Source: a virus
Virus record (IMG/VR): IMGVR_UViG_3300031707_005430
Location: 1 to 23,907 of that record
Reading direction: 5' to 3' (one strand)
Length of the DNA stretch: 23,907 nt
The notes beneath the pieces are model-generated. The model searched no databases. It was given only the letters and a program-made list of their open reading frames with translations, and had not been told where the DNA came from. The stretch's first letter is position 1; the number at the start of each line of letters is the position of its first letter. Position numbers and translations under genes: made by a program. Below are positions 5,901 to 22,152 of the stretch, piece by piece.

Positions 5901-6448
5901 GCATCAGCCGTAAAGACGAGCTTACGGCTCTCAAGACCGAGAGCCAGCACGTTCAGCTCTTCGAGACGATCCTAAGCTCTCCGTTCGAGATTGCGTCGGA
6001 CGAGACCCGGGTGTCTTGGTCGACCAACATCCGCGTTCTGCTTGCGGACTTGGGCAAGCTCGATGAAATCAACAAGACGCAGAAGGGCGTGTACTTCGAC
6101 GCAAAGATGGAGTGGCTGGCCATCAACTGGGTCTCCGCTACACAGGGCGTACTAGCTAGAGCGGTCACCTGGCATAAGCAAAACACGTCGGCCCTTAACG
6201 CCATCGCGTCCCGGTCTCCGTACTACGTCTCCCCTGCCGACGTTGTGAATGGCGGGATTTTGGACCGCCTCGTGCCGTACATGGGTTTTGGGCAAAACGT
6301 CGACACCGTTGCGGTGTTCAGCGTCAAGCATCTGCTTGACCAAGCCCGCAAAGCCCGAGAAGTCGCCTTGGTAGCTACACCCCCTGTGGTGGTTCAGCCC
6401 AAAGATGCGAAGCCTGTATCAGAAAAGATAGATGACATCGAATTCTAA
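2942..6448 (+). CDS. Large primase: CHC2 zinc finger, TOPRIM and C-terminal P-loop ATPase
   Basis: A 1168-residue DnaG-type primase fused to an ATPase. A CHC2 zinc finger (Cys56, His59, Cys77, Cys80; CPFHTDGSPS and KCFGC) would bind template. The TOPRIM catalytic core runs from about 322 to 395, with VEGEFD (Glu328/Glu330) and GDRDKGG (Asp377, Asp379). A long unassigned region follows (about 400-740). A P-loop AEHESGKS (762-769) and a Walker B-like LCLEEFED (812-819) then indicate an ATPase that may be the replicative helicase or loader. No DnaB-like helicase is otherwise present in the window. The layout recalls phage primase-helicases, but the protein is much longer than T7 gp4 (about 566 residues). 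The start is GTG at 2942 with a good SD (AGGAG about 7 nt upstream) inside the preceding gene. Primase identity is strong; helicase activity is inferred. Confidence 0.92.
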   Translation: MARKSKNKEAPDGKNLGSKLRQIWAELGTDNWFAWLIEQLPASRFTRRGEHIVGVCPFHTDGSPSLIISPMKGLAKCFGCQKTYSCPVKFVRAVRALDGSNHSFSDTLVFLRKRFGLKSSIPEALYEKLQERETYQDMKAAFADWSGALLFDAMVAYPNLEAANLEWARPLVEWLMERNLGGYAPNELQPASAVEAQSKNPPADPYEIWARLCYSQLVGVFPPLAFINAKWEHDQTMLNFVRTYFAKMLEGQTYVGQLVFVLHDAPGSIARFKLRAPRSDSKAMTYVDDAYAMESGDFRGYFGLHFARAFLGSDENGVNFLNSAYLVEGEFDVLSPLARMLRQGSTDFLILAAGGGSVQGADKLLEFGITNIFIVGDRDKGGENFTQLLLEKSSSPKLTFKVFNWPDEYANWRDAVSPAARVKDPDEAIKHLGYPKFRRYLSDPDCYWQTYQWCFEQASVEISKVDEADVKQRYRVAREWGVLLKDATECGVFCSNIEKHFDGLDKGPLLRDIQAKDEDEEVFILRLLDVVKEHFHPVGVQNGENRKRILLLYNKRERAIDQIILNDETSIATAFSRYFGPLYDFVRDQVGEPGFMADEDEQPAFRVTNRVKKYKEYLNFALLKLAQGLPHLDHAPVKAQGLHFIDDVDGVLRAYLVNGRDVYSLVNREGGGYEVGHLSGPSDSGIIFDNSGEAWLHTVKKKEDLTLEDYSLPAAFETLRSMVDKGWAWKYQSVDPIFLASLTMCLQVMAIFSRQTAIMLNAEHESGKSRFTTGFIGGANYPRINVLANAVTMNGYTAASIRQRRNNSSLALCLEEFEDYGIQDSKSVQVRKVLELTRDMNSEKEVEWSVGTTSGEAKIYRIRFPMICCAIRPLQDAASISRFLRFELVKDASRTDPVITLIKEFGEPTIKELKKNLAVAFLPHMQALRKCQAEIEQEFATGKNLPAFASSRFREGVYPILAMLKFLKAQAGGEQIPDYKQFAYDFCISRKDELTALKTESQHVQLFETILSSPFEIASDETRVSWSTNIRVLLADLGKLDEINKTQKGVYFDAKMEWLAINWVSATQGVLARAVTWHKQNTSALNAIASRSPYYVSPADVVNGGILDRLVPYMGFGQNVDTVAVFSVKHLLDQARKAREVALVATPPVVVQPKDAKPVSEKIDDIEF

Positions 6449-9443
6449 GAAAGTCGCGCTGCCCGTCGTTGACTTCACCGACGCGTCAGTTAACCCCGAT
6501 ACCCAAACCACAGACTGCAAAGGAATCGTCTGCAACGGCTGTGAGCTGTTCAACAAGGAGCGGATCCTAGGCGCGGGGCACCAAGGCGACATCGACATCA
6601 TGTTTGTGTCGGAGTCCCCCTCGTCATGGTCAGTGAACAACAAACAAGTCTTCTATGGCCGCGGCGGCCGCATCATCCGCGAAGCATGGAAGACCCTGAA
6701 GTTCATGGACGCAAAGGCAGGTCACCCGCTAAACCTCCGGCACCTTCGAAAGTTCGACACGTACGCCATCCAGTGCCAAGTGGAGACGGGGCGTGAGTCT
6801 GCGGGGCCTATCCCCAAACCTGTCATCGACCGCTGCTCGCTCTACCTCAAGGCCTCCATTGTCTCGAAGAAGCCGAAGATCATCCTGGCCTTCGGGTCCA
6901 ATGCGCTCAAGGCGCTGGGCTACAAGGGTGAGAAGTTCATGGAGGTCCGTGGCCGACTCCTGTCGATGGAGATCGGCGGGCATTCGGTGCAGGTGCTGCC
7001 GACGTTTTCGACCAAGCACCTCGTAGCCAAGACAGGCTTGTACACGCTCTTCCACAACGACTTCCTGCGGGCGATTCGTTTGGCGAGCGGCGCAGACCAG
7101 GTCAATTCGCAGATTCCGATAGAGGAGATCGTCAAAGAGTACAAGTTTCCGAAGACCGTCGAAGAGGTTGCTGCGGTTTGCGACGAGATCATCAATTACG
7201 TCGGGCCGGGAGGCGCCAGCGCTCAAAATTGGTCAATTTCGTTTGACACGGAAACCAACACGGTTAACCCGCATCGCGCAGACGCCAAGGTGTTGTGCAT
7301 TTCGTTCGCTTGGGACGATGGTAAATCGACGGCGATTCCGATGTGGCACGACCAGGCTCCTTGGACGCCGGGGGAGTTTATCGAAGTCCTGGGGCATGTT
7401 CGGCGCGTGCTCGAGAGCCCAAAGCCCAAGGCGGCCCACAACTTTAAGTTTGACGGAAAGTTCCTCGAGCTTCGGCACGGGCTAACCATCAACGCGATGG
7501 CTTGGGATTCCATGCTGGCGGAGCATTTGCTGCGTGAAGACCAGTCGGGCGCGTACTCCTTGAAGGTCTTGGGGCGGAGTTACTTTCCGTCCTTCGCCAA
7601 CTACGCGGACAAGATTCACGAGCTTGCTGTCGGGCTCACCGTTGAAGAAGAAGCCGTGCACGAGACCTTGAAGGGGGTCCGTCGCTGCAAAGTCAAGGCG
7701 GGGACCCCTGGATTCGACGAGGGCATGACAGTAGACCTCGGCAAGAAAGACGTCGAACAGTACCTCTACGGGGCCAAGAAGGACCGTAGGAAGCGTGTCA
7801 ACGACTCAGGCTACGAACGCGTCCCGCTAGAGAATCTTCTCACCTACGCCGCCATTGACACCGATCTAACTCGCCGGCTCTGTAAAAATCAGGCGGCGCG
7901 GCTACGCGCAGAGGGCTTTCCCGGCGGCAAGACGCTGATGAAGACTCACTGTGTCCCCGCGTCACGCACGCTCGGCAAAATGGAATTCAAGGGGATGCGG
8001 GTCGACCTCCCCTACGTAAACTTCTTGGAGGAGGCGCTGACCAAGGTCGTCGCTGACAAGAAGACCCAGCTCGAGATTGACTGGGATGGATTTGGGCGCG
8101 GGGAGCCTTTCAATCCGAACTCTACTCAACACGTCGGCCATGTGTTGTTCAGCGCGGGTGTAGATTTCGAAGGGCGCAAACCAGGGGAGCCGAAGGCGCT
8201 TCGTGGCGGACCTTGGGCCGAGAGAAACACGAAGTCTCAACAGTGGAAGACTGACAAGAAAACGCTGCGCGCCATCGTCGAGCACACCAAGTGCCGATTC
8301 AGCACCGCGCTGCTAGATCACCGAGCGGCACACAAGGCGCTCTCGGGGTTCATCCACGACATCAAGATCCTGGCTGAGTACGACGGGTTCCTGCATACGA
8401 ACTTCTTGCTGCACGGGACCTCGACCGGTCGTTTGTCGTCGAACAACCTGAACATGCAGAATCTGCCGTCGTTCCTGGCGGGCTTCAATATCAAGAAGAT
8501 TTTCCTGCCTGATGATCCCGAGACTGAGGTCATCGTTAACGTTGACTGGCGTGGCGCCGAGATTCGAATCTTCACGGCGTACGCACGTGACCCGAAGCTC
8601 ATCGATGCCTTGAACAACGGGCTCGACGTTCACTCGCTCTTTGTCCACGAGATCTATGGGATCCCGTATGACGACGTGGCCAATCGAGACCAGTGGAAGG
8701 ATACGGACCCCGCGAAGTACAAGAAGCTCAACGCGCTACGCACCAACTGCAAGCGCGTCGTCTTCGGCATCTTGTACGGCGCCATGGCCAAGAAGATTGC
8801 TGAGACCGCGGGCATCTCCGAGGACGAAGCCCAGAAGATCATCGACGGCATGTTCACGAAGTTCCCGTCGCTAAAGGGCTACATGGACGAGACAGTTGCC
8901 GAGATCCACACGAAGGGTTACGTCGAGACCTTGCTCGGTCGCCGTCGTCGATTTCCGCTGCAAGGAGTCAATGGCTTTTTCCGCGGACAGGCCGAACGAC
9001 GTGGAAAAAACATGAAGATCCAATCCACGAGTTCGGATATTGTCATCGGCCAGCTCGTCGAGCTGGACCAGGCAATGGGCGAGCTTGGCGGGCGTCTGTG
9101 CATCACGGTTCACGATTCCATTGTGGCCACCGTCAAGAAGAAGTACGTGTCTCAGCTGCCCGCGTTCCTGGACCATTACTGCGTGAAGCGGGTCGCGCAG
9201 AAGTACCCGTGGCTCCCGGTCGCGTTTGCTTGTGACATCGAAGTTGGCCCGAGCTACGGAGAGCTGAGTACAGTTGATAGGTACCTGAAAGCAGAAGCAG
9301 CCAGAGTCAAAACACCCGAGGAGATGATGAATGTCGATTTCGAAATCGAAGCGGTCGAAGAGCTACGGACGGACGACGAGGAGCGAGCCGAAGCAGAAAG
9401 CATCGCAGCCGCTTTGGGAGCGGGTGGCGGGGCTCCCGCTTAG
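6432..9443 (+). CDS. Family A DNA polymerase with N-terminal UDG-like domain and proofreading exonuclease
   Basis: A 1003-residue replicative polymerase. Residues about 30-220 resemble family 4 uracil-DNA glycosylases. Four cysteines (34, 37, 115, 135) sit where the 4Fe-4S ligands of that family lie, but the active-site motifs are altered (SESPS in place of the GEAPG type, PTFSTKH in place of the HPS type). The 3'-5' exonuclease follows, with Exo I Asp272/Glu274 (FDTETN), Exo II Asp341 (HNFKFD) and Exo III Tyr472/Asp476 (YAAID). Pol A motifs are A (Asp705 and Glu710, VDWRGAEIR), B (Lys774, Phe778, Tyr782; KRVVFGILYG) and C (His894-Asp895-Ser896). Motif C reads HDS instead of the common HDE. 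No 5' nuclease domain is seen. The acidic/Ala-rich C-tail after about 960 looks disordered. The gene overlaps the primase by 17 nt and has a weak SD, so coupling is likely. Polymerase identity is very strong; glycosylase activity is doubtful. Confidence 0.95.
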   Translation: MTSNSKKVALPVVDFTDASVNPDTQTTDCKGIVCNGCELFNKERILGAGHQGDIDIMFVSESPSSWSVNNKQVFYGRGGRIIREAWKTLKFMDAKAGHPLNLRHLRKFDTYAIQCQVETGRESAGPIPKPVIDRCSLYLKASIVSKKPKIILAFGSNALKALGYKGEKFMEVRGRLLSMEIGGHSVQVLPTFSTKHLVAKTGLYTLFHNDFLRAIRLASGADQVNSQIPIEEIVKEYKFPKTVEEVAAVCDEIINYVGPGGASAQNWSISFDTETNTVNPHRADAKVLCISFAWDDGKSTAIPMWHDQAPWTPGEFIEVLGHVRRVLESPKPKAAHNFKFDGKFLELRHGLTINAMAWDSMLAEHLLREDQSGAYSLKVLGRSYFPSFANYADKIHELAVGLTVEEEAVHETLKGVRRCKVKAGTPGFDEGMTVDLGKKDVEQYLYGAKKDRRKRVNDSGYERVPLENLLTYAAIDTDLTRRLCKNQAARLRAEGFPGGKTLMKTHCVPASRTLGKMEFKGMRVDLPYVNFLEEALTKVVADKKTQLEIDWDGFGRGEPFNPNSTQHVGHVLFSAGVDFEGRKPGEPKALRGGPWAERNTKSQQWKTDKKTLRAIVEHTKCRFSTALLDHRAAHKALSGFIHDIKILAEYDGFLHTNFLLHGTSTGRLSSNNLNMQNLPSFLAGFNIKKIFLPDDPETEVIVNVDWRGAEIRIFTAYARDPKLIDALNNGLDVHSLFVHEIYGIPYDDVANRDQWKDTDPAKYKKLNALRTNCKRVVFGILYGAMAKKIAETAGISEDEAQKIIDGMFTKFPSLKGYMDETVAEIHTKGYVETLLGRRRRFPLQGVNGFFRGQAERRGKNMKIQSTSSDIVIGQLVELDQAMGELGGRLCITVHDSIVATVKKKYVSQLPAFLDHYCVKRVAQKYPWLPVAFACDIEVGPSYGELSTVDRYLKAEAARVKTPEEMMNVDFEIEAVEELRTDDEERAEAESIAAALGAGGGAPA

Positions 9444-11547: not shown

Positions 11548-13185
11548 TTAGTAGAACTTCAAGTCCTGGCAGAGCACGCGCCAAGCAATCCACCCGAAGA
11601 TCTGGGCATGCAGCGCGTCGTCAGGCGCCGTCGGTGAGTGCCGCCACACCTTCCGCCCAGCCTGCGTCGTCTCTTCGTACACGTTCAAGATGTCGTCGAT
11701 GGCCGGCTTCATCTGAGTGAGCTTGGGGTAGATAACCTTGCCGTGCGTGAGGAACGTGGCGTAGTTATCGATCAGCGTGGTTCGGTCAGCGTGATAGCAA
11801 AGCGTGTTCGGATTCCAGTCGATGGGCTTCGAGAACGCGCCGTACCGAAGCTGCAGAACCCGGTGATGCCCTAGCTTCTCTCGCAACATGGCGTTGGCCA
11901 TCGCGCCTTCTCCGGCGTCTCCACAAATGGACTGCACGCCCCAGGCGTTGCACAGCTCGACGATTTCCTCGATCCAGCCGACCGGATGTCCGTTGGGGAA
12001 GATCTTGTAGAACATGGTCTTCAAACGCCCGTCACCAGGGTCGCCCCAGATGTGAAGAACCGTGCGGCTCTTGTAGAGCCCTTCGGAGCCTTTGATTTCT
12101 GCCCCGCCTCCGGACCAGTCAACACCCGCCACTGTACGACGGATCCCGAGGAGGGAGTTCGGCAGGGGCAGCCGAGTCATCTCGTATTCATCAGGCCCTG
12201 TGGCGCACAATCCCTGCAGGATTTCCTGTGTAAGGAGACGCGCGCCCGTAGACGTCGAGACCCCTAGAACCTCGTTGAGAAACTTCACTTCGCCGTAGTT
12301 GTCCCGCTTGAACAAGAGGCGGTTCCAACGCTCCTGCGCCTTCTCTTTGTCGCCGGTCGTGACGAAGGCGGCCGGCACGTTCTCCGGCATGATGGGCTGT
12401 GAGATGTGGAAGCCTTTGATTGGCGCCCCCGGCTTCATGTCGATCCAGCGGCCGCTTCGTGGGTTGAGGTGCTTTCCACAGCTGAGACACTCAGGGCCGA
12501 ACAAACCAAGCGCCTTTGGTGAGTCGATGAAGGTGAGTTTGTTGCAACCAGAGCACTTCATGCACCACTCGGTCTGCGACGAAATCGACCAGAGGAACTC
12601 GATGGAGTTCTCCATGGTCTTCGGCGTGCCTGCATAGATGGAACGAGCGTAGTTTGAGTTCGCCATGCACTCTTCGATGACAGGAACGACAGGCTCGTAG
12701 AGCATGTCTTGGACCTCGTCGAAGGTGCACATGTCCGCAGAGAAGCCTCGTGCTCGGTCTGGATTATCCAGGGCGTACGTGAAGGCCATTTCGGAGCCGT
12801 TCTTCAACAAGCGCAAAAGCACGTTGTCGATGGACTCAGGCCCCAAAAACCCCTTTCTAACTTCAGGAGAATAAGTGAGGACTTTTGCGATACGGGTGTG
12901 AGAGAACTTGCGGGTCTGCTCCTGCGACGGAGAGACGAAATACGTCTTGAAGTGGGGCTGCCCTATGCACTGGGCAAGAATGAAGTTAGCGATGGACGTA
13001 CTTTTACCGACCTGACGAGCCGTCTTGAGGAGGAGCTTTGAGTAATCGCCGTCATAGATGGCGGTATACATCGGGTAGTTGCTGAGAGAAAACGGCTTCC
13101 CGTCAACGTGAAATAGAGCTTGTGCAATGTTCGACCGGAAATTCTGGATCTCCAGAGTTTCCTTAGCTGCACCAACCCCCGCCAT
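11548..13185 (-). CDS. terL: Phage terminase large subunit (DNA packaging motor)
   Basis: The large terminase subunit, which powers DNA packaging into the prohead and cuts the concatemer. Counting from the GTG at 13197, the ATPase domain has Walker A in KTARQVGKST (58-67) and Walker B in MCTFDEVQ (Asp160-Glu161). An inserted cysteine cluster, CMKCSGC (212-218) with CLSC (237-240), is probably zinc-binding. The RNase H-fold nuclease has acidic residues in VAGVDWSGGG (Asp360), CGDAGEG (Asp427) and PDDALH (Asp526/527). Length (545-549) and the QVGKS P-loop resemble GpA-type terminases. I chose the ATG at 13185; GTG codons at 13188, 13194 and 13197 are alternatives, and none has a good SD. It is divergent from the MoxR gene with only 23 nt between the starts. 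I saw no small subunit in the window. Confidence 0.94.
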   Translation of the reverse strand: MAGVGAAKETLEIQNFRSNIAQALFHVDGKPFSLSNYPMYTAIYDGDYSKLLLKTARQVGKSTSIANFILAQCIGQPHFKTYFVSPSQEQTRKFSHTRIAKVLTYSPEVRKGFLGPESIDNVLLRLLKNGSEMAFTYALDNPDRARGFSADMCTFDEVQDMLYEPVVPVIEECMANSNYARSIYAGTPKTMENSIEFLWSISSQTEWCMKCSGCNKLTFIDSPKALGLFGPECLSCGKHLNPRSGRWIDMKPGAPIKGFHISQPIMPENVPAAFVTTGDKEKAQERWNRLLFKRDNYGEVKFLNEVLGVSTSTGARLLTQEILQGLCATGPDEYEMTRLPLPNSLLGIRRTVAGVDWSGGGAEIKGSEGLYKSRTVLHIWGDPGDGRLKTMFYKIFPNGHPVGWIEEIVELCNAWGVQSICGDAGEGAMANAMLREKLGHHRVLQLRYGAFSKPIDWNPNTLCYHADRTTLIDNYATFLTHGKVIYPKLTQMKPAIDDILNVYEETTQAGRKVWRHSPTAPDDALHAQIFGWIAWRVLCQDLKFY

Positions 13186-13208
13186 CACACGCACCACAGG
13201 AGAGACGA

Positions 13209-14537
13209 ATGTCCAAGGTTGAGAACACCCAGGCAGAAGAGAGCTTCACCGGAAAGCTCGACATCAACCTGGTGTCGACGAACATGTACCACACGTTGCT
13301 CGAGATCCTCTCGGACGCACCCCGAGCGGTTCTGTGCATGATCGGCATGCCGGGCATCGGTAAGACCGCGATCCCCCAGGAGGTTGTGCGCCTCCGGAAT
13401 TCTCTGTATGCCGCGTTCCATGTGCCGACGCTTTCGGTCGAGGACCTTTCAATTCCGACCACCGCGGTCGACACGAAAAGATACTACGATAAACGCATCT
13501 CGCGCAAACTCCAGCCATTGCTGGATTATTGCACGCGGCTGCGTGAGGAGAATGGGGGCAAGTTCCCAGCTGGCCGGAACCCCATCCTGGCCCTCGAAGA
13601 GCTGAATCGGGCTGTTGACAAGCACGTGACTCGGGCGCTCTTCACCCTCATCGAAGACCGCATGCTGGGCGATACATACATCGACCCAGCCATCCAGATC
13701 GTGGTGACCATGAATCCGTCCGGCGGGTCCATGGCAGTCAACGAGTTCGAGCGTGACCCGGCTGCACGTCGCCGTCTCACCATGGTCGGTGTCACTGCTT
13801 CGTACGGCGACTTCATCAACTACGCACGTGGAACGAACGTGCCGTTCTCACGTGGCCAAGTGTTCGAGGAGCTTCCTCCGCGTGTCGAAGGCGGGCCCCG
13901 GTTCCACCCCAAGATCATCGAGCATTTGGAGGCTCAGCCGACCTGGTTCTATGACGAGGCGGCACTGCAGGCTGGAAAGAAGTTTGCGTGCCCCGCTGCA
14001 TGGGAGACCTTGTCTCAGGTCTGCCGTGCGCTAGAGCGTCGCTCGTTCACCCTCGACTCCTCGGAGGCCCGTGCGGCCTTTGCAGGCACCGTGGGCGCAA
14101 CGGCCGCTGAGGCTTTCATCGAGTTCGTGGTGGACGCCACCGTCGTCATCACGCCAGAGGAGGTCCTGTCGGGCTATCGGGAGGGCAGCACGGTCAAGTC
14201 CCGACTCGTCAAGCTCGTGCAGGACAGCCGCATGGACAAGGTCTCAGAGCTGTGCAAGGGCCTCGTCATGAAGGTCCTGGACGGCGGAAAGCGCAAGCCA
14301 GAGACCTTCGGCAAGCAGCTCGCCCTGTTCATGGACGATCTGCCCGAGGATACCTGTCTGGCGTTCGTGAAGCAGCTGAACGCGCAGTCCAAGGTTGCTT
14401 CCGGCGGTCAGAAGTTCTTCTCTGACCTGAACGCGCTCATGGCAAAGGAAGTCTACTTCCAGACGACCATGAAGCGGTTGCAGGCGGCGCGTGATGCGGG
14501 CGAAGCAGAAGCCAAGAAGTCTGGCTTCACAGCCTAG
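13209..14537 (+). CDS. MoxR-type AAA+ ATPase
   Basis: A 442-residue AAA+ ATPase of the MoxR/RavA/CobS type, which usually remodels or inserts cofactors into partner proteins together with a VWA-domain protein. Walker A is GMPGIGKT (46-53). Walker B is LALEELNRA (127-135), with Glu130-Glu131 where Asp-Glu is usual. Sensor 1 is VVTMNP with Asn169. An arginine-rich DPAARRRL segment (183-190) follows, and a helical C-terminal domain runs to the end. A strong SD, AGGAGA, sits 6-7 nt before the ATG, immediately outside the divergent terminase start. Its likely partner is the metallopeptidase/VWA protein at 16227-17759 on the same strand. The last 11 nt overlap the convergent gene at 14527. The phage target is unknown. 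Confidence 0.9.
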   Translation: MSKVENTQAEESFTGKLDINLVSTNMYHTLLEILSDAPRAVLCMIGMPGIGKTAIPQEVVRLRNSLYAAFHVPTLSVEDLSIPTTAVDTKRYYDKRISRKLQPLLDYCTRLREENGGKFPAGRNPILALEELNRAVDKHVTRALFTLIEDRMLGDTYIDPAIQIVVTMNPSGGSMAVNEFERDPAARRRLTMVGVTASYGDFINYARGTNVPFSRGQVFEELPPRVEGGPRFHPKIIEHLEAQPTWFYDEAALQAGKKFACPAAWETLSQVCRALERRSFTLDSSEARAAFAGTVGATAAEAFIEFVVDATVVITPEEVLSGYREGSTVKSRLVKLVQDSRMDKVSELCKGLVMKVLDGGKRKPETFGKQLALFMDDLPEDTCLAFVKQLNAQSKVASGGQKFFSDLNALMAKEVYFQTTMKRLQAARDAGEAEAKKSGFTA

Positions 14538-15168
14538 ACTGCTGCTCCTGGAGATATAGTTCAATCGCTGCCAGGCGAGCGAGCTGCACTCCATGGGGTG
14601 TCTCAGGAAAAGCATGGCCGGCAATTGAGGTCTTATCGATTGCCGGCCATGCCTTCTGTGTCTCTTCTTTGAGCGTCTTAGCGCCTGCGTGATTCAAGCC
14701 ATCCAGAAGGTCTTGTGCAAAGGCTAGTTCTTCGGGGGCAAGAACTAGCCCTTCCCGGTGCATCACCACAGCCGCGTAAGCCGCCGGTTCGTGCATGAAA
14801 CTGTGAGGCTCGTCTCCGTGTGCCGCGACGATCCGCGCAGCTTCTCTCACGGCCCAGGCCAACTCCGCGGACGAAGCCTCCTCGAGGATGTCCGGATTCG
14901 GGGCATGCCCATCAAAGGCCAAGGCCGTCTTTTCGAAGACGCCCGCGTCCCAGTAAAAGCTCGGCGTGAAGTAGAGCGTGATGCCTGCGAGGATCTTTGC
15001 CTGATTGGAAGCAGGAACTTGAATGTTCCTGTTTCCAAGCTCGAGCCAAATCGACTCAGGCTCCCAGCCCCAACAATCACCGAGTAAATTTTTGAGCGTA
15101 ACCAGCAGCGTACTAGCTGGCACAGTCTCGTCGAGAAGAAGGCTCGTAGCAATCTTGACCTGGGCCAC
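14527..15168 (-). CDS. Hypothetical protein, possibly virion-related
   Basis: A 213-residue protein I do not recognise. It is a mixed alpha/beta sequence with no cysteine pairs, signal peptide or membrane segment; a segment rich in Ala and Glu runs from about residue 95 to 170. The start is GTG at 15168, 10 nt after the stop of the upstream gene, with no clear SD, so translation may depend on reinitiation. A small hairpin (GCAGAT/ATCTGC, 15172-15191) spans the junction. Its 3' end overlaps the convergent MoxR stop by 11 nt and contains a long perfect hairpin at 14612-14652. Minus-strand company (terminase, tail-like genes) suggests a virion or assembly role, but this is inference. Confidence 0.75.
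   Translation of the reverse strand: MAQVKIATSLLLDETVPASTLLVTLKNLLGDCWGWEPESIWLELGNRNIQVPASNQAKILAGITLYFTPSFYWDAGVFEKTALAFDGHAPNPDILEEASSAELAWAVREAARIVAAHGDEPHSFMHEPAAYAAVVMHREGLVLAPEELAFAQDLLDGLNHAGAKTLKEETQKAWPAIDKTSIAGHAFPETPHGVQLARLAAIELYLQEQQSRL
14612..14652 (-). repeat. Perfect 14-bp inverted repeat inside a coding region
   Basis: Arms GCATGGCCGGCAAT (14612-14625) and ATTGCCGGCCATGC (14639-14652) are exact reverse complements. Three further inner pairs are possible (one a G-T), leaving a loop of about 7 nt. On the minus strand the stem is followed by TTTTCC, which is terminator-like, yet it lies about 85 nt before the stop codon of the gene at 14527-15168. On plus it lies about 75 nt after the MoxR stop with no T-run. 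Confidence 0.7.
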
Positions 15169-15178
15169 GAGGCAGATA

Positions 15179-16171
15179 CTACCGCATCTGCTGCCCGAGC
15201 ATCATCTTCATGTCGCGGGGAAGCGTTTCCAGGATCGCCGCGAGCTTGTGCGGGTCCATACCACCGCGGCCGTCGGAGGCCTCACGCACCAGGTCGTCGC
15301 CCAGCACGTCCCCGTAGAACGTCGACGGGTACGAAGCCAGGCGGTCCATCGACACGAACTTGCCGCCGAGGTCAACGCCGTGACCCGCGACCTTGGTGGT
15401 GTTGAAAACTGACATCATCGGGTCCGGCAGCTTGCGATCGTAGAACTTCACAAGCCCCGCCTTCTTGTCCAGCTCCGCCACAACTTCGGCGATCTTGACT
15501 AGCGCTTCACGATCACGAATCTCCGCGGGCAGCCCCTTCAGGCCGTCTGCAATCTTCTGGAAGGCGGCCTTGTAGGGCTCTGCCGAAGCTTCCTTGCGTG
15601 CCTCAATCCAGTCCTTCAAGATGGCCGTCGAAGAGACCGTGAAGCCCGCGAGCTTGTGCATCAAGGGGTCGAGCTTGACGTTGAGCGCGGCCGCCTTGTC
15701 CACGAGACGCTTGCATGCCTGGGCCCGGTGTTCGACGGAGAGCTTCTGATAACCCGCAATGAGCTTCTCCTCCGCGAGCTTGACTTGCGCCGCAGTGCGG
15801 ACAGGCAGGCGCTTCATACCGGGCAGGAGGTAGTCTTCCGGGTCGTCCGGAAGCGCGGCGATTTTGGTACGGTCAAAGAGCGAATCCTCAAGGCCGTAAA
15901 TCTCACAGGCTTCCTTGAGGGTAGCGTCGACGTGAGCTGGAACTGCACCGCGGAAGTTCTCACGATAAACCCGAGACATCGCAGTATGCTCCGCGCTGTG
16001 AATCGGGAACGCCCTTTTCTCGGGCCATGAGAAGGCGGTATCCGGAAGGGTATCAAGCTCTTCCGGGAGAACTTCAGCTTCCTTGACCAGGTCCTCGACG
16101 GCAGGACGGTCCGCCACAAGACGGACAAGGACAGCGAGGCTGGGGTCACGAAATTGGTCGATCAGCGACAT
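15179..16171 (-). CDS. Hypothetical protein, possibly virion-related
   Basis: A 330-residue, mostly helical, charged protein of unknown function. An N-terminal segment reads AFPIHSAEHTAMSRVY; similar FPIH/S-x-x-Y patterns occur, from memory, in uncharacterised phage structural-region proteins. The middle is rich in Lys, Ala and Glu and could form coiled coil. The C-terminus is Met-rich (RDMKMMLGQQMR). Two starts compete. The ATG at 16171 has no SD but has a perfect TATAAT six nt upstream, suggesting a leaderless message. A TTG at 16189 has GAGGG nine nt upstream. I prefer the ATG. The gene is followed 10 nt later by the next minus gene, probably as one transcript. Confidence 0.75.
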   Translation of the reverse strand: MSLIDQFRDPSLAVLVRLVADRPAVEDLVKEAEVLPEELDTLPDTAFSWPEKRAFPIHSAEHTAMSRVYRENFRGAVPAHVDATLKEACEIYGLEDSLFDRTKIAALPDDPEDYLLPGMKRLPVRTAAQVKLAEEKLIAGYQKLSVEHRAQACKRLVDKAAALNVKLDPLMHKLAGFTVSSTAILKDWIEARKEASAEPYKAAFQKIADGLKGLPAEIRDREALVKIAEVVAELDKKAGLVKFYDRKLPDPMMSVFNTTKVAGHGVDLGGKFVSMDRLASYPSTFYGDVLGDDLVREASDGRGGMDPHKLAAILETLPRDMKMMLGQQMR

Positions 16172-16177
16172 GGTGAA

Positions 16178-16183
16178 ATTATA
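16178..16183 (-). promoter_or_regulatory. Consensus -10 hexamer next to a start codon
   Basis: TATAAT on the minus strand ends six nt before the ATG at 16171. The sequence 17 nt upstream (TATGAG) matches the -35 consensus poorly. It might be a promoter for a leaderless mRNA, perhaps recognised by a phage-specific sigma, or it might be a chance coding match if the TTG start is used. Confidence 0.3.
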
Positions 16184-16226
16184 GGTCAAACCGGGAGTCC
16201 CTCATAGGGGCCACCAGAAAGGGTTC

Positions 16227-17759
16227 ATGAACCTCACACTGCCACAACTGTTTACCTACCTGCTCGGCGAACGGAACTTCTACGCTCACGTCGCTAACGG
16301 CATGCCCCGCGTCATCATTCCGGGCGAGGGCACGATGGCCGTTGGTATTTACCAGGGACGAATGACTCTCTTCGTCTACTCGGAATTCATCGAAAAGGTC
16401 AGTCTCGGGTTCGGTATCTACGTTCTCGAGCATGAGATGTACCACGTGGTCATGGACCACATCCCGCGTCTTTTGGAAGCGATGGCGCTCTACCCCGAAG
16501 AAGGCATGCGGGACCGAATCAAAGCGGTTTCGAACATCGCCATGGACTGCGCCGACAACACCAACTTGCGGGGCAGCAAGTATTTCAAGACGGCAGTGGA
16601 AGAGACCAAGGCTATGTGTCGCGCGGGGCGCCCTGAAAAGACCCACGATGACAACGACGGCATGGTTTTGCCCGAGCACTACGAACTCCGAATTGATGGC
16701 TCGTACGAGTTCTATCAAAGCGAGTTGTTGAAGAAGGCAGGGCAAGACGGAAAAGGCCGCGGCAGAAACCCGGGGCGTGAACTCACCGATGAGGAAATGG
16801 AGGCGCTGGAAAAGATTCTGCAGGATGCGGCAGACAAGATCGGCGATGCGCACAGTCGCTGGACGCGGGACCAGGCTGACCTGGAAAAGAAGGAAGGCGA
16901 AGGGGGACTCCCGGTGCCAGGCGGTTTTCCTGGAGGCCCGGGGCCAGGCGGTTCTCCCGGCAGTTCTCCTGGAGATCCTCCGGCAGACCTTCCCCCGCAA
17001 ACCAGCGAGCAGCTCCGCGACCTCGCTGAGCGGCTTCGCACACAGTCCAAGCGCCTCCTACGCAAGGCGGTGGCAGACACCAGACGAGACCGGGGTACCA
17101 TCCCCGGAGAAATCGAAGAGTGGCTCGAGACGTTCTTGGCGGACCCCATCATCCCGTGGTGGGAGCTGCTTACGTCGCGGGTTACGGCGGCGAAACGCTC
17201 GAAGCCGGAGCGAGGAATTCAGCGACCAAATCGAGTTCTGCTAGCCATGGCCGAGGAAGACGGAGCAATCATCCCGTCCATCGGCCGCACCAGAGACCCT
17301 CGCTTCCGTGTGTTCTTCATGGAAGATACGTCCGGGTCAATGCGGACGGAGGAGCTGCAGATTGCCTTCAGCGAGCTGAACCACCTCATGAAGGCGGACG
17401 ACGACATCGAAGTTCGCTATATCCAAGGCGACGCGAGGGTGCACTTCGACAAGGTTCTCAAGACCGGAGACTCCGTCCCCACAGAAGTCCATGGGCGAGG
17501 GGGAACCGATTTCGAATCGTACTTCGAACACATGGCTCAGTACTGTGGCAACGACGAGACAGCGCCGGACATCATCATCGTGTATACCGACGCGGGCTGT
17601 CACTCGCCGAGGGCAGAGTATCGCTTGTCGCCGGACATCCCCGTCATCTGGTTGGTGACCCCCGGCAATAGCGGGGACCACTTGAAGGCAGCGGGCTATG
17701 GCGAGGTGATCGCCTGTGACCGACAGCAGAGCCAGGGCTGGGATAGCAAGGCGGCTTGA
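16227..17759 (+). CDS. Metallopeptidase-like and VWA-like domain protein (DUF2201 type)
   Basis: A 510-residue two-domain protein. The N-terminal domain carries a zinc-peptidase-like HExxH (His69-Glu70...His73 in LEHEMYHVVMDH) and AMDCADN downstream (about 106-111), as in the putative metallopeptidase domain paired with VWA-like proteins. A helical segment (about 180-222) and a Pro/Gly-rich linker (about 225-262) follow. The C-terminal VWA-like domain has a metal-binding motif DTSGS (Asp367, Ser369, Ser371), then GRGGTDF and VYTDAG. Bacterial relatives are commonly encoded beside MoxR ATPases, and a MoxR gene lies 1.7 kb upstream on the same strand, separated by two opposite-strand genes. Purines (GAAAGGG) directly precede the ATG. 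It is followed by a strong terminator. Domain assignment is confident; its phage role is unknown. Confidence 0.9.
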   Translation: MNLTLPQLFTYLLGERNFYAHVANGMPRVIIPGEGTMAVGIYQGRMTLFVYSEFIEKVSLGFGIYVLEHEMYHVVMDHIPRLLEAMALYPEEGMRDRIKAVSNIAMDCADNTNLRGSKYFKTAVEETKAMCRAGRPEKTHDDNDGMVLPEHYELRIDGSYEFYQSELLKKAGQDGKGRGRNPGRELTDEEMEALEKILQDAADKIGDAHSRWTRDQADLEKKEGEGGLPVPGGFPGGPGPGGSPGSSPGDPPADLPPQTSEQLRDLAERLRTQSKRLLRKAVADTRRDRGTIPGEIEEWLETFLADPIIPWWELLTSRVTAAKRSKPERGIQRPNRVLLAMAEEDGAIIPSIGRTRDPRFRVFFMEDTSGSMRTEELQIAFSELNHLMKADDDIEVRYIQGDARVHFDKVLKTGDSVPTEVHGRGGTDFESYFEHMAQYCGNDETAPDIIIVYTDAGCHSPRAEYRLSPDIPVIWLVTPGNSGDHLKAAGYGEVIACDRQQSQGWDSKAA

Positions 17760-17765
17760 ACTATC

Positions 17766-17799
17766 AAGCAGCCCCCGTAACAGGGGGGCTGCTTTTTTT
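17766..17799 (+). terminator. Intrinsic terminator after the VWA gene
   Basis: A perfect 11-bp stem (AAGCAGCCCCC, 17766-17776, with GGGGGCTGCTT, 17784-17794) has a 7-nt loop and seven T residues (17793-17799). It stands between convergent genes, 6 nt after the VWA stop. Confidence 0.95.
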
Positions 17800-17808
17800 A
17801 GCTGCGAA

Positions 17809-18813
17809 TCAGCCACTTACTGTGCAGACGCTCGAGGCCAGGAAGTCCGGACAGATAGCGACAACAGCAGCAAGCGCCGCGGCCTCTGTAACGAGATCAT
17901 CCGCGTAGGTCTGCTGTGCAACCGTATTCGCCGTTGTCTTCGATTGAACGTCTGCCGCGGCCGCAGTCGACGACGCTGACTTGGCAGAGTAGAACGACGC
18001 GATGCTGCCGACAAAGGTCGTGAAGATCGCGAGCTGCGCAGTCAAGATCGGGTCGTACGTACCCTGCGCGTAGCTGACCGCAGCCTGGAATGTAGTCGTT
18101 GCTGCGGCGAACGTTGAGGCACACGACGACGAGCTTGCGGCCGCGATGTAAACGGTGCCCGCATTGTACAAGGTCTCATAGGCGATCTGCGCGTTGCTGA
18201 AGTCGGCAAGAAGCTGCGTCGCGGTCGTCTGGAGACCGGCGATGGTTGTGACGTCGGCCTGGAGAAGCGTGTACAGCGATTGCGCGTCCGACAGGTCCGT
18301 AGCGGCCGTAGCCGCCAGCAGCCCGTCTGTGTACCTAGTCTCCTTAGCCAGTTTGTAAGCCGCGATGAGGGCGTCTTTCTGGGACAGGTCAACTGTCGGC
18401 AGCGTGATGTTGTCTGGCGTCGGGTCCGGCGCGTTGAATGTCGCGTTGAAGGAGATCCAATCGTTGATGAGCGCGTTGACACGGTCTTTGATTGCCGTCT
18501 GTGCGTCGATTGCTTCGGTCAGCGTGGTGTACTTCGTCACCGCCGTCGGCTCGAGGTACTCGATCCCTGTTCCGGTGGACGAGGCCAGCGCGGCTTCCCG
18601 GCCAATGGGGAGCGTGGTCAGGTCGGCGATTCGAGCAACCCGTGCTAGCGAATCGTCCTTCGGGTCGTTCCGCGTCACGAGCGTCAGGACGAAGACGAAT
18701 AGGTGAGGCAGCTCGGTCGGGAAGACCGCTGAGATCATCGTGTTCGTGATGACGAAGTTTTGTAGTGTCCCAGTGACGTACAGGACATGTCGCTCTTGTT
18801 GAAAAACAGCCAT
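17809..18813 (-). CDS. Ala/Ser/Thr-rich probable virion protein
   Basis: A 334-residue protein with a structured N-terminal part (about 1-100; MAVFQQERHVLYVTGTLQNF onwards). A long Ala/Thr/Ser-rich helical region from about 105 to the end looks like a coiled-coil or fibrous segment. The C-terminus has two cysteines (CPDFLASSVC), which may form a disulphide. Composition and its tandem arrangement with the smaller gene upstream suggest a tail-fibre, whisker or other structural component. The SD GGGGAG and AGG lie within 18 nt of the ATG, just after the upstream stop, so the two genes are coupled. No homologue is recognised by eye. Confidence 0.75.
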   Translation of the reverse strand: MAVFQQERHVLYVTGTLQNFVITNTMISAVFPTELPHLFVFVLTLVTRNDPKDDSLARVARIADLTTLPIGREAALASSTGTGIEYLEPTAVTKYTTLTEAIDAQTAIKDRVNALINDWISFNATFNAPDPTPDNITLPTVDLSQKDALIAAYKLAKETRYTDGLLAATAATDLSDAQSLYTLLQADVTTIAGLQTTATQLLADFSNAQIAYETLYNAGTVYIAAASSSSCASTFAAATTTFQAAVSYAQGTYDPILTAQLAIFTTFVGSIASFYSAKSASSTAAAADVQSKTTANTVAQQTYADDLVTEAAALAAVVAICPDFLASSVCTVSG

Positions 18814-19833: not shown

Positions 19834-22152
19834 ATGGAGATGGAAATGCCGCTGATGCCAGTCACGGGGATTCAGGCTGTTCAGGTTCTGCCACAGGTCA
19901 AGAAGCGCGACGGGCAGACGATTCAGGTCTTTGACTTCACCAAGGTCCGCAACGCGATTCGGAAGGCGTGGCTCGAGGCTGAAGGCGTCATCGATGAGGA
20001 TAAGCTCGTCGCGGTCACTAACTTCGTGGCCAGCACCATCCCTGACGACGTAATTGGCGTCGAGGAAATCCAGGACCTCGTCGAAGCCGCGCTCATGCGG
20101 AAGCGTCTCTTCAAGGTCGCCAAGGCGTACATCGTCTATCGGCACGAGCGGTCCGAGAAGCGAAAGACCCGCCATAAGCCCGACGAGGACGCGGTCGCAA
20201 ACTACGTTCACTTCGGAAAGTACGCGCGCCATCAGCCCGACCTTCTTCGACGTGAAGTCTACCTCGAGACGGTCAGCCGCACGGAAGACATGCATCTCCG
20301 TCGCTTCGCGCACATCCCGGGCCTGGCAGAAGACATCACCTGGTCGTTTGACCGCGTCCGCGAAAAGCGTGTCCTGCCCTCGATGCGCTCGATGCAGTTT
20401 GGCGGTAAGGCCATCGAGTCAGTGAACAACCGGATCTACAACTGCACCTTCTCCTTCGTGGACCGCCCCAAGGTCTTTGCCGAGGCGCTCTACCTCCTGC
20501 TGTGCGGTTCGGGTGTCGGCTTCTCCGTTCAGTACGAGCACGTGGACCAGCTCCCTCCGTTGAAGCACGTTGACCTGAACAAGGTCGTCCATCACACCGT
20601 CGCCGACACTGTCGAAGGTTGGGCCGACGCACTGCACACCTTGTTCACTGCCCACGTCGACGGGTTCTACGTCGAGTTCAATTTTTCGAAGATCCGGGAC
20701 AGGGGGACTCCGCTCAAGACCTCGGGCGGCCTGGCCCCCGGGCACCGCCGCTTGAAAGAATCCCTCGAGCAGATTCGAAAGGTCCTCGAGGGGGCTGCGG
20801 GACGTAAGCTCCGCCCAATCGAGTGCTACGACATCTTCTGCCACGCCGCCGATGCGGTTCTCTCCGGTGGAATCCGCCGGAGTGCCATGATCTGCCTGTT
20901 CTCCCTCGAGGACAGTGAGATGGTCTACGCCAAGACGGGACGCTGGTACGACACGCACCCGTGGCGGACGAACTCCAACAACTCCGTCATGCTCAAGCGC
21001 GACGAGGTCAAGAAGAAGCAATTCAAGCGCATCTACCAGATGGTGCGTGAGTGGGGCGAGCCCGGGTTCTACTTCTGCTCGGACTACGATCACGGCGCCA
21101 ATCCCTGCGTCGAGATTGGGCTCAATCCGAAGCTTACGGTCGACGCGGAAACGCGCCCGATGCTTGAAGGTAAGCTGGGTAAAGAAGCAGCCGCCGCGCT
21201 TGAGGATGGGCAGACCCTGACGGGCTGGGCTTTCTGCAACTTGTGCGAGCTGAACGCGAAGAAGTTCACCTCCGCCGAGGACTTCCTCGAAGCTGCCAAG
21301 GCCGCCACCATCATCGGAACGTTGCAAGCGTCGTACACGAGCATGCCCTACCTTGGCTGGGTCTCTGAGATCATCGCTGAGCGCGAAGCGCTCCTCGGTA
21401 TCGGCATGACGGGAATGCTCGACTCACCGGCGATTTCAACGGACCCGGCTACCCAGCGTCTCGTGGCAGAGAGCATCAAGAAGTGGAACGCGGAGTACGC
21501 GGCCAAGATTGGGATCCGCCCCGCTGCGCGCACCACCTGCGTGAAGCCGTCGGGCACCACGTCGCTAGAGCTGGGTTGTGTTGCGTCGGGCCACCATGCG
21601 CACCACGCTAAGCGATACATTCGCCGCGTCACCGCAAACGAACTTGAGGTTGGCTTTCAGGCCTTCCGAAAACTCAATCCGCACATGTGCGTTCGCAAGC
21701 CGAATGGGGATTGGGCTGTGGAGTTTCCTGTCGAGGCCCCAGAGGGCGCAATCGTCAAGGAAGACCTCACGGCGTTGTCCTTCCTGGCGATGGTCAAGTC
21801 CACGCAGGAGAACTGGGTGCTCCCGGGCGTCGCTCGTCCGGCGTCTTCTCCGGGTCTGACCCACAACGTCTCGAACACCATCCACGTCCGCGAGGACGAA
21901 TGGGACGCGGTGGCCGAGTTCATCTGGCAGAACCGAGAGTTCTTCACCGGTGTCGCGCTGATTCAGATGCGCGGCGACAAGGACTACGCCTTCGCCCCCA
22001 ACGAGGCCGTGGTCACCGAGGCGGACGAGGCACGCTGGAACCAGCTGGTGGACGGCTATGTTCCGCTCGACTATTCTTCCGTTCTCGAGATGGACGACGG
22101 AACGTCGCTCACCGCTGAAGCCGCGTGCTCCGCGGGTGGCTGCGAAAAATAG
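19834..22152 (+). CDS. nrdJ: Class II (adenosylcobalamin-dependent) ribonucleoside-triphosphate reductase
   Basis: A 772-residue monomeric ribonucleotide reductase that makes dNTPs using a B12-derived radical. An N-terminal ATP-cone for allosteric control lies at about 22-106. The barrel shows YNCTFSF with redox Cys204, LCGSGVGFSV, GGIRRSAMI, NPCVE with thiyl Cys425 and Glu427, FCNLC (Cys468, Cys471) and KPSGTTS. The C-terminal tail CSAGGCEK (Cys765 and Cys770, CX4C) matches the shuttle pair of the Lactobacillus RTPR type. The stretch between Cys425 and the second redox cysteine is longer than I expect for that enzyme. An SD-like GGGGGA precedes the ATG. No thioredoxin, small subunit or activase is visible, consistent with class II. 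Identity is very strong; substrate level (NTP rather than NDP) is inferred from similarity to RTPR. Confidence 0.95.
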   Translation: MEMEMPLMPVTGIQAVQVLPQVKKRDGQTIQVFDFTKVRNAIRKAWLEAEGVIDEDKLVAVTNFVASTIPDDVIGVEEIQDLVEAALMRKRLFKVAKAYIVYRHERSEKRKTRHKPDEDAVANYVHFGKYARHQPDLLRREVYLETVSRTEDMHLRRFAHIPGLAEDITWSFDRVREKRVLPSMRSMQFGGKAIESVNNRIYNCTFSFVDRPKVFAEALYLLLCGSGVGFSVQYEHVDQLPPLKHVDLNKVVHHTVADTVEGWADALHTLFTAHVDGFYVEFNFSKIRDRGTPLKTSGGLAPGHRRLKESLEQIRKVLEGAAGRKLRPIECYDIFCHAADAVLSGGIRRSAMICLFSLEDSEMVYAKTGRWYDTHPWRTNSNNSVMLKRDEVKKKQFKRIYQMVREWGEPGFYFCSDYDHGANPCVEIGLNPKLTVDAETRPMLEGKLGKEAAAALEDGQTLTGWAFCNLCELNAKKFTSAEDFLEAAKAATIIGTLQASYTSMPYLGWVSEIIAEREALLGIGMTGMLDSPAISTDPATQRLVAESIKKWNAEYAAKIGIRPAARTTCVKPSGTTSLELGCVASGHHAHHAKRYIRRVTANELEVGFQAFRKLNPHMCVRKPNGDWAVEFPVEAPEGAIVKEDLTALSFLAMVKSTQENWVLPGVARPASSPGLTHNVSNTIHVREDEWDAVAEFIWQNREFFTGVALIQMRGDKDYAFAPNEAVVTEADEARWNQLVDGYVPLDYSSVLEMDDGTSLTAEAACSAGGCEK

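Follow-up and report, generated by a model that had tools for sequence, protein, structure and literature searches.

MIDAS-bearing von Willebrand factor A (VWA) domains, which carry a metal-ion-dependent adhesion site, work together with AAA+ rings in midasin and in RavA-ViaA. Among viruses, the architecture of a MoxR ATPase with a metallopeptidase-vWA protein has been named in jumbo phages (Iyer et al. 2021, PMC7824862), and phage N4 encodes gp24, a putative AAA ATPase, and gp25, a vWFA protein, according to their published description (PMC2784036), both being middle transcripts (PMC4193335); no paper on the function of gp24/gp25 was found in the literature searched. A pair of this kind lies in the window analysed here, a 23,907 bp stretch of viral DNA comprising positions 1-23,907 of IMG/VR record IMGVR_UViG_3300031707_005430, a fragment for which no end repeats are known. 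A genuine MoxR-VWA pair that includes a zincin domain, it is carried by a phage and is of an already known type, the N4 gp24/gp25 family, which is also present in AR9, RaK2 and S-TIM5. What is new here is the stable interleaving of the pair with virion genes.

The MoxR gene (13209-14537, plus strand, 442 aa) and the metallopeptidase-VWA gene (16227-17759, plus strand, 510 aa) flank two open reading frames on the minus strand, at 14527-15168 (213 aa) and at 15179-16171 (330 aa from its ATG), referred to below by their first coordinates. This layout of two plus-strand and two minus-strand genes had been described in an earlier, sequence-only reading of the window, and all four frames were recovered with the same boundaries. 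An alternative TTG start at 16189 is possible for 15179; relatives favour the ATG start of that reading. The MoxR frame shares its last 11 bp, tail to tail, with 14527, and the partners are 1.7 kb apart in the window versus 0.2 kb in N4.

The ATPase belongs to the N4 gp24 family, matching AAA_5 (3.8e-6, above the Pfam cut-off) and phrog_1297 (7.5e-36), and the closest solved relative of its AAA+ profile is midasin (5e-49). The hallmarks of a MoxR-type AAA+ protein are present, namely the Walker A motif (GMPGIGKT, residues 46-53, 13344-13367, plus strand, with a near-invariant K52), the Walker B glutamate, the sensor 1 asparagine and the arginine finger, and K52, E131, N169 and R189 are at least 97% conserved among the 37 complete members of the window's own clade. 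The partner, a member of the N4 gp25 family, matches DUF2201_N (4.2e-12, above the cut-off), the DUF2201 VWA-like domain (2.4e-13) and phrog_1314 (1.6e-46), its Pfam families being PF13203 and PF09967. As the sequence-only reading had pointed out, it bears both HExxH and DxSxS: the zinc motif HEMYH (residues 69-73, 16431-16445, plus strand) is followed by the conserved residues H78, R81 and D107, the last of which is probably the third zinc ligand of the zincin domain, and the MIDAS motif DTSGS (residues 367-371, 17325-17339, plus strand) is completed by T427 and D455. In a 17-sequence alignment of distant phage homologues H69, E70, H73, H78, R81, D107, D367, S369, S371 and D455 are invariant, and all zinc and MIDAS residues, including D367, S369, S371, T427 and D455, are at least 97% conserved in the 37 complete clade members. 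For the zincin part, weak E-values point to a likeness with M48-type and minigluzincin structures (BepA, MJ1213, projannalysin), BepA and MJ1213 being the closest zincins; proteolytic activity is a prediction from residue conservation. Both genes are under purifying selection, with ratios of nonsynonymous to synonymous substitution in close clade pairs of 0.008-0.17 for MoxR and 0.04-0.19 for the VWA gene. The PHROG and RefSeq label "HNH endonuclease", which N4 gp25 itself carries in RefSeq, is unsupported, as the domains are a metallopeptidase and a VWA.

Beyond the window, the VWA protein is matched by tblastn in 255 phage records, among them N4-like phages, AR9/PBS1, RaK2, S-TIM5 and Staphylococcus jumbo phages. 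The MoxR family is present in 18/18 diverse VWA-bearing records (the window and 17 phages picked from the VWA matches), where its gene is usually next door to the VWA gene and first in order, with gaps mostly below 0.7 kb. Because phrog_1297 also matches in 14/14 control genomes, two large phages without the VWA gene were used as a negative control, and neither the 181 kb genome of Arash nor the 187 kb genome of D69 gives a signal with the MoxR profile. A relative with one partner alone, which the sequence-only reading had named as speaking against its proposal, was not found; where one partner is missing, both are missing, at the locus in one clade member (L063) and across the whole genomes of Arash and D69. 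The partners also co-vary: in a mirror-tree analysis controlled for terminase and the DNA polymerase PolA (n=37), the partial correlation between MoxR and VWA is 0.40 (permutation p 0.0005), while it is -0.05 between MoxR and 15179 and 0.04 between VWA and 15179. A split by the opposite strand is unusual, not unique, since in a 257-kb phage (G005) MoxR and VWA are likewise separated by two opposite-strand genes, of which one encodes an amidase endolysin and the other has a sub-threshold peptidoglycan-binding match; in SNUABM_55 the two genes are 3.7 kb apart on opposite strands. In Listeria phage LPJP1 (L010:1166-3615), the MoxR and VWA frames are both in pieces, as if by joint decay or misassembly.

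The stability of the interleaved arrangement is seen in the window's own clade. A DNA-level search of phages found no relatives of the window, and single-protein scans of viral contigs with the VWA protein, terminase and 15179 gave no match; relatives were reached via the ribonucleotide reductase (RNR; two relatives) and then with two-row and multi-row alignments built from them, which yielded 19 loci through 15179 and 80 through terminase, or 67 distinct terminases after duplicate removal. In the window the terminase large subunit gene (11548-13197, minus strand; phrog_675, 2.4e-46) is the antiparallel neighbour of MoxR, with 11 bp between the starts, and MoxR lies antiparallel directly beside terminase in 59/60 distinct relatives with at least 600 bp of upstream sequence. 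The sequence-only reading had proposed that co-occurrence of the four genes be checked in related phages, and the order VWA-15179-14527-MoxR is that of the window in all 39 relatives with at least 5.2 kb upstream, one of which (L131) has its 15179 match in two pieces. In a further contig (L139:1-4453) MoxR is beside terminase, and a 14527 homologue was not found in the 1.6 kb to the left of MoxR. Since the arrangement is still syntenic across a clade whose terminases diverge to about 46% identity, and since the catalytic residues are near-invariant in the 37 complete members, it is not a product of chance. PolA, RuvC and RNR, where present, share the strand of the pair, while terminase, 14527, 15179, 17809 and 18819 are on the other.

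The exceptional locus, L063 (4,086 bp), contains 17809, 15179, 14527 and terminase contiguously on one strand, without MoxR and VWA, an absence that covers this locus only, as both genes may lie beyond so short a contig. In the window, 17809 is a 334-aa gene of the minus-strand virion-side block (17809-18813), and its counterpart in L063 directly precedes the 15179 homologue. This layout shows an unbroken run of virion-side genes to be possible and places the two genes of the pair at distinct junctions. The L063 lineage has a long, poorly placed branch, and its locus may reflect either ancestral absence or secondary loss of the pair.

Neither enclosed protein has a significant Pfam match, and direct tblastn gave no match in GenBank phages. 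A structure search of the PDB likewise returned nothing for 15179 (predicted local distance difference test, pLDDT, 79) or for 14527, an all-helical protein predicted by AlphaFold2 (AF2) at pLDDT 92, whose sole BFVD match is an uncharacterised protein of an uncultured phage (template-modelling (TM) score 0.85). Homologues of both do exist in Salmonella phage Arash, a remote one in the case of 14527. A hidden Markov model (HMM) of the clade's 15179 proteins scores Arash gp242 at 27.4 bits, against 8.8 for the best of 2,200 shuffles, and that for 14527 scores the adjacent gp243 at 33.2 bits, against at most 5.9 for shuffles. Gp242, Gp243 and Gp244 are among the Arash virion proteins detected by mass spectrometry (PMC10585845 Table 2). 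GenBank annotates gp242 as a structural protein and gp243 as hypothetical, and the numbering of the paper may be off by one; either way both proteins are listed. Arash, from which MoxR and VWA are both missing, has the homologues in the window's order, so the enclosed genes are most likely virion or late genes for which the pair is not needed. Within 14527, 75 bp past the MoxR stop, there is a perfect 17-bp hairpin (14612-14652; the surrounding 71 nt fold at -38 kcal/mol, z -6.7); checked as a conserved terminator, it was not found in L049 or L052.

Taken as a whole, the pair is best read, with fair but limited confidence, as an early or middle AAA+ remodeling metalloprotease of the N4 gp24/gp25 type, which would act on a host protein or on a replication or transcription protein rather than on the virion. 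The MoxR ring would hydrolyse ATP and remodel or feed a protein substrate, the C-terminal MIDAS/VWA domain of its partner would serve to dock on the ring or to hold the substrate, and the N-terminal zincin domain (HExxH) would cut it. As its genes share a strand with those of DNA metabolism, the pair would be expressed together with PolA, DnaQ, RuvC and RNR, early or middle in infection. The enclosed genes would belong to a virion and packaging operon, 18819-17809-15179-14527-terminase, with MoxR and VWA interleaved at two of its junctions.

The most serious competitor is a chaperone-protease of virion assembly and maturation, in which MoxR-VWA would help to assemble and proteolytically process structural proteins. 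Such a role has been proposed for group 2.2 jumbo phages (PMC7824862), with an analogy in the tail-assembly MoxR-VWA of Acidianus two-tailed virus, and it fits a clade whose pair invariably lies interleaved among virion-type genes beside terminase; a gene annotated as virion structural or packaging lies two genes downstream of the pair in S-TIM5, and structural genes adjoin the gp24/25 homologues of roseophage RPP1 (PMC4193335). However, the pair is opposite in strand to the virion genes and shares that of PolA, RuvC and RNR; the N4 pair is of the middle class and the AR9 pair of the early class, an early promoter being annotated just upstream of its ATPase gene in the AR9 record; Arash and the L063 locus have virion-gene homologues and no pair; and the pair does not co-vary with 15179. 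A target on the host or replication side thus seems likelier, given the coding strand, the timing in N4 and AR9 and the virion genes present in pair-less Arash, and the virion maturation role suggested by the sequence-only reading is left as a possible but less likely one, at odds with the DNA-metabolism strand, the N4 middle genes and the AR9 promoter. Several points weigh on the other side. The timing is taken over from N4 and AR9 rather than from this phage, and early or middle expression leaves some room for a later role in assembly; Iyer et al. 2021 (PMC7824862) favour virion assembly for the pair; the Walker B motif of the window MoxR is EE, as in some relatives, rather than DE, so that full ATPase activity is a prediction; and 14527 co-varies weakly with MoxR (0.16) and VWA (0.17; p 0.02-0.03), a slight link to one enclosed gene. 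A further reading for this large-phage clade, in which an assembly or gating protease is kept interleaved and antiparallel with the terminase/virion operon because antisense transcription or shared divergent starts tie its expression to the early-late switch, is quite improbable.

The sequence-only reading also offered the enclosed genes as clients of the pair and the pair as a chelatase-like machine. That 14527 and 15179 are specific clients would agree with their position between the partners in 39/39 relatives of sufficient length and with the weak co-variation of 14527, but their homologues stand in the same order in Arash, without both partners and listed as virion proteins, and in L063, with neither at the locus; 15179 does not co-vary with the pair, and a homologue of it was not detected in the pair-bearing phages LUZ7, AR9, S-TIM5 and TMA. 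The client proposal is accordingly disfavoured and quite improbable, and the mirror-tree result, weak evidence by nature, agrees. A counter-defence or defence module can be imagined because MoxR-VWA-effector ternary conflict systems exist (PMC7159879); it is very improbable, given that none of the four proteins has a meaningful PADLOC match, that a VMAP-like third partner was not recognised, that the neighbours are virion and DNA-metabolism genes and that conservation in the clade is core-like rather than patchy. Least probable of all is insertion of a cofactor in the manner of CobS-CobT or MoxR/CoxD, for example for the B12-type RNR that lies downstream of the pair on the same strand (19834-22152; TIGR02505 5.9e-57, below the curated cut-off). 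The MoxR-VWA class includes such systems, and the suggestion found no support beyond that class: no large chelatase subunit (CobN) and no cobalamin-pathway context is seen in the 24 kb window, itself a record fragment, and the link to RNR is disfavoured because the pair persists in three lineages (L058-L060, L061-L062 and L064) in which RNR is absent from the sequenced locus. A conserved HExxH is not a known feature of CobT.

Other elements of the window and clade can be noted in their own right. An intrinsic terminator (17766-17800, plus strand; 11-bp stem and T tract, fold -24.1 kcal/mol, z -4.3) lies 7 bp beyond the stop codon of VWA, in the gap where VWA and 17809 converge. In PolA (6432-9443, 1003 aa) a family-4 uracil-DNA-glycosylase/UdgX-like domain (residues 33-213) is joined to the polymerase at its N terminus, and a phage-encoded sigma factor (15-800; phrog_351, 5.7e-40) is on the virion-gene strand. 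In two relatives (L052:12992-15709 and L054:12991-15741) the terminase is about 905 aa long and is interrupted in frame, at the FDE-QDM motif, by an intein-like insert that ends in GQC, not the usual HN-C/S. One clade contig, L154 (QMZE01000001.1), was binned in an Archaeoglobales metagenome-assembled genome, suggesting either an archaeal host or mis-binning.

Pairs of the N4 gp24/gp25 type are widespread among many unrelated phages. The present analysis removes the guess that the enclosed genes are clients, shows that the partners are kept or missing together, lists residues for mutation and points to phage N4 in laboratory E. coli for finding the target of the pair. Like N4 gp24/gp25 and the Schitoviridae orthologues, the window pair combines phrog_1297 and phrog_1314, with the same domain order, invariant zinc and MIDAS residues and both genes on the same strand; unlike the closely spaced N4 genes, with which it shares about 20% identity, it is split by two opposite-strand genes. 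With the pair of group 2.2 jumbo phages (PMC7824862) it shares a vWA cochaperone fused to an N-terminal metallopeptidase, although the window belongs to a different large-phage clade and its pair is split by virion genes. AR9 g028/g029 (an AAA ATPase and a zincin-like protease fused to vWA) show the same order and a near full-length VWA match, but form an adjacent operon with an annotated early promoter. As in RavA-ViaA, CbbQ-CbbO and midasin, an AAA+ ring and a MIDAS domain would act together; none of these three is known to have a DUF2201_N zincin domain, and the window pair differs from RavA-ViaA in that its VWA partner carries this metallopeptidase.

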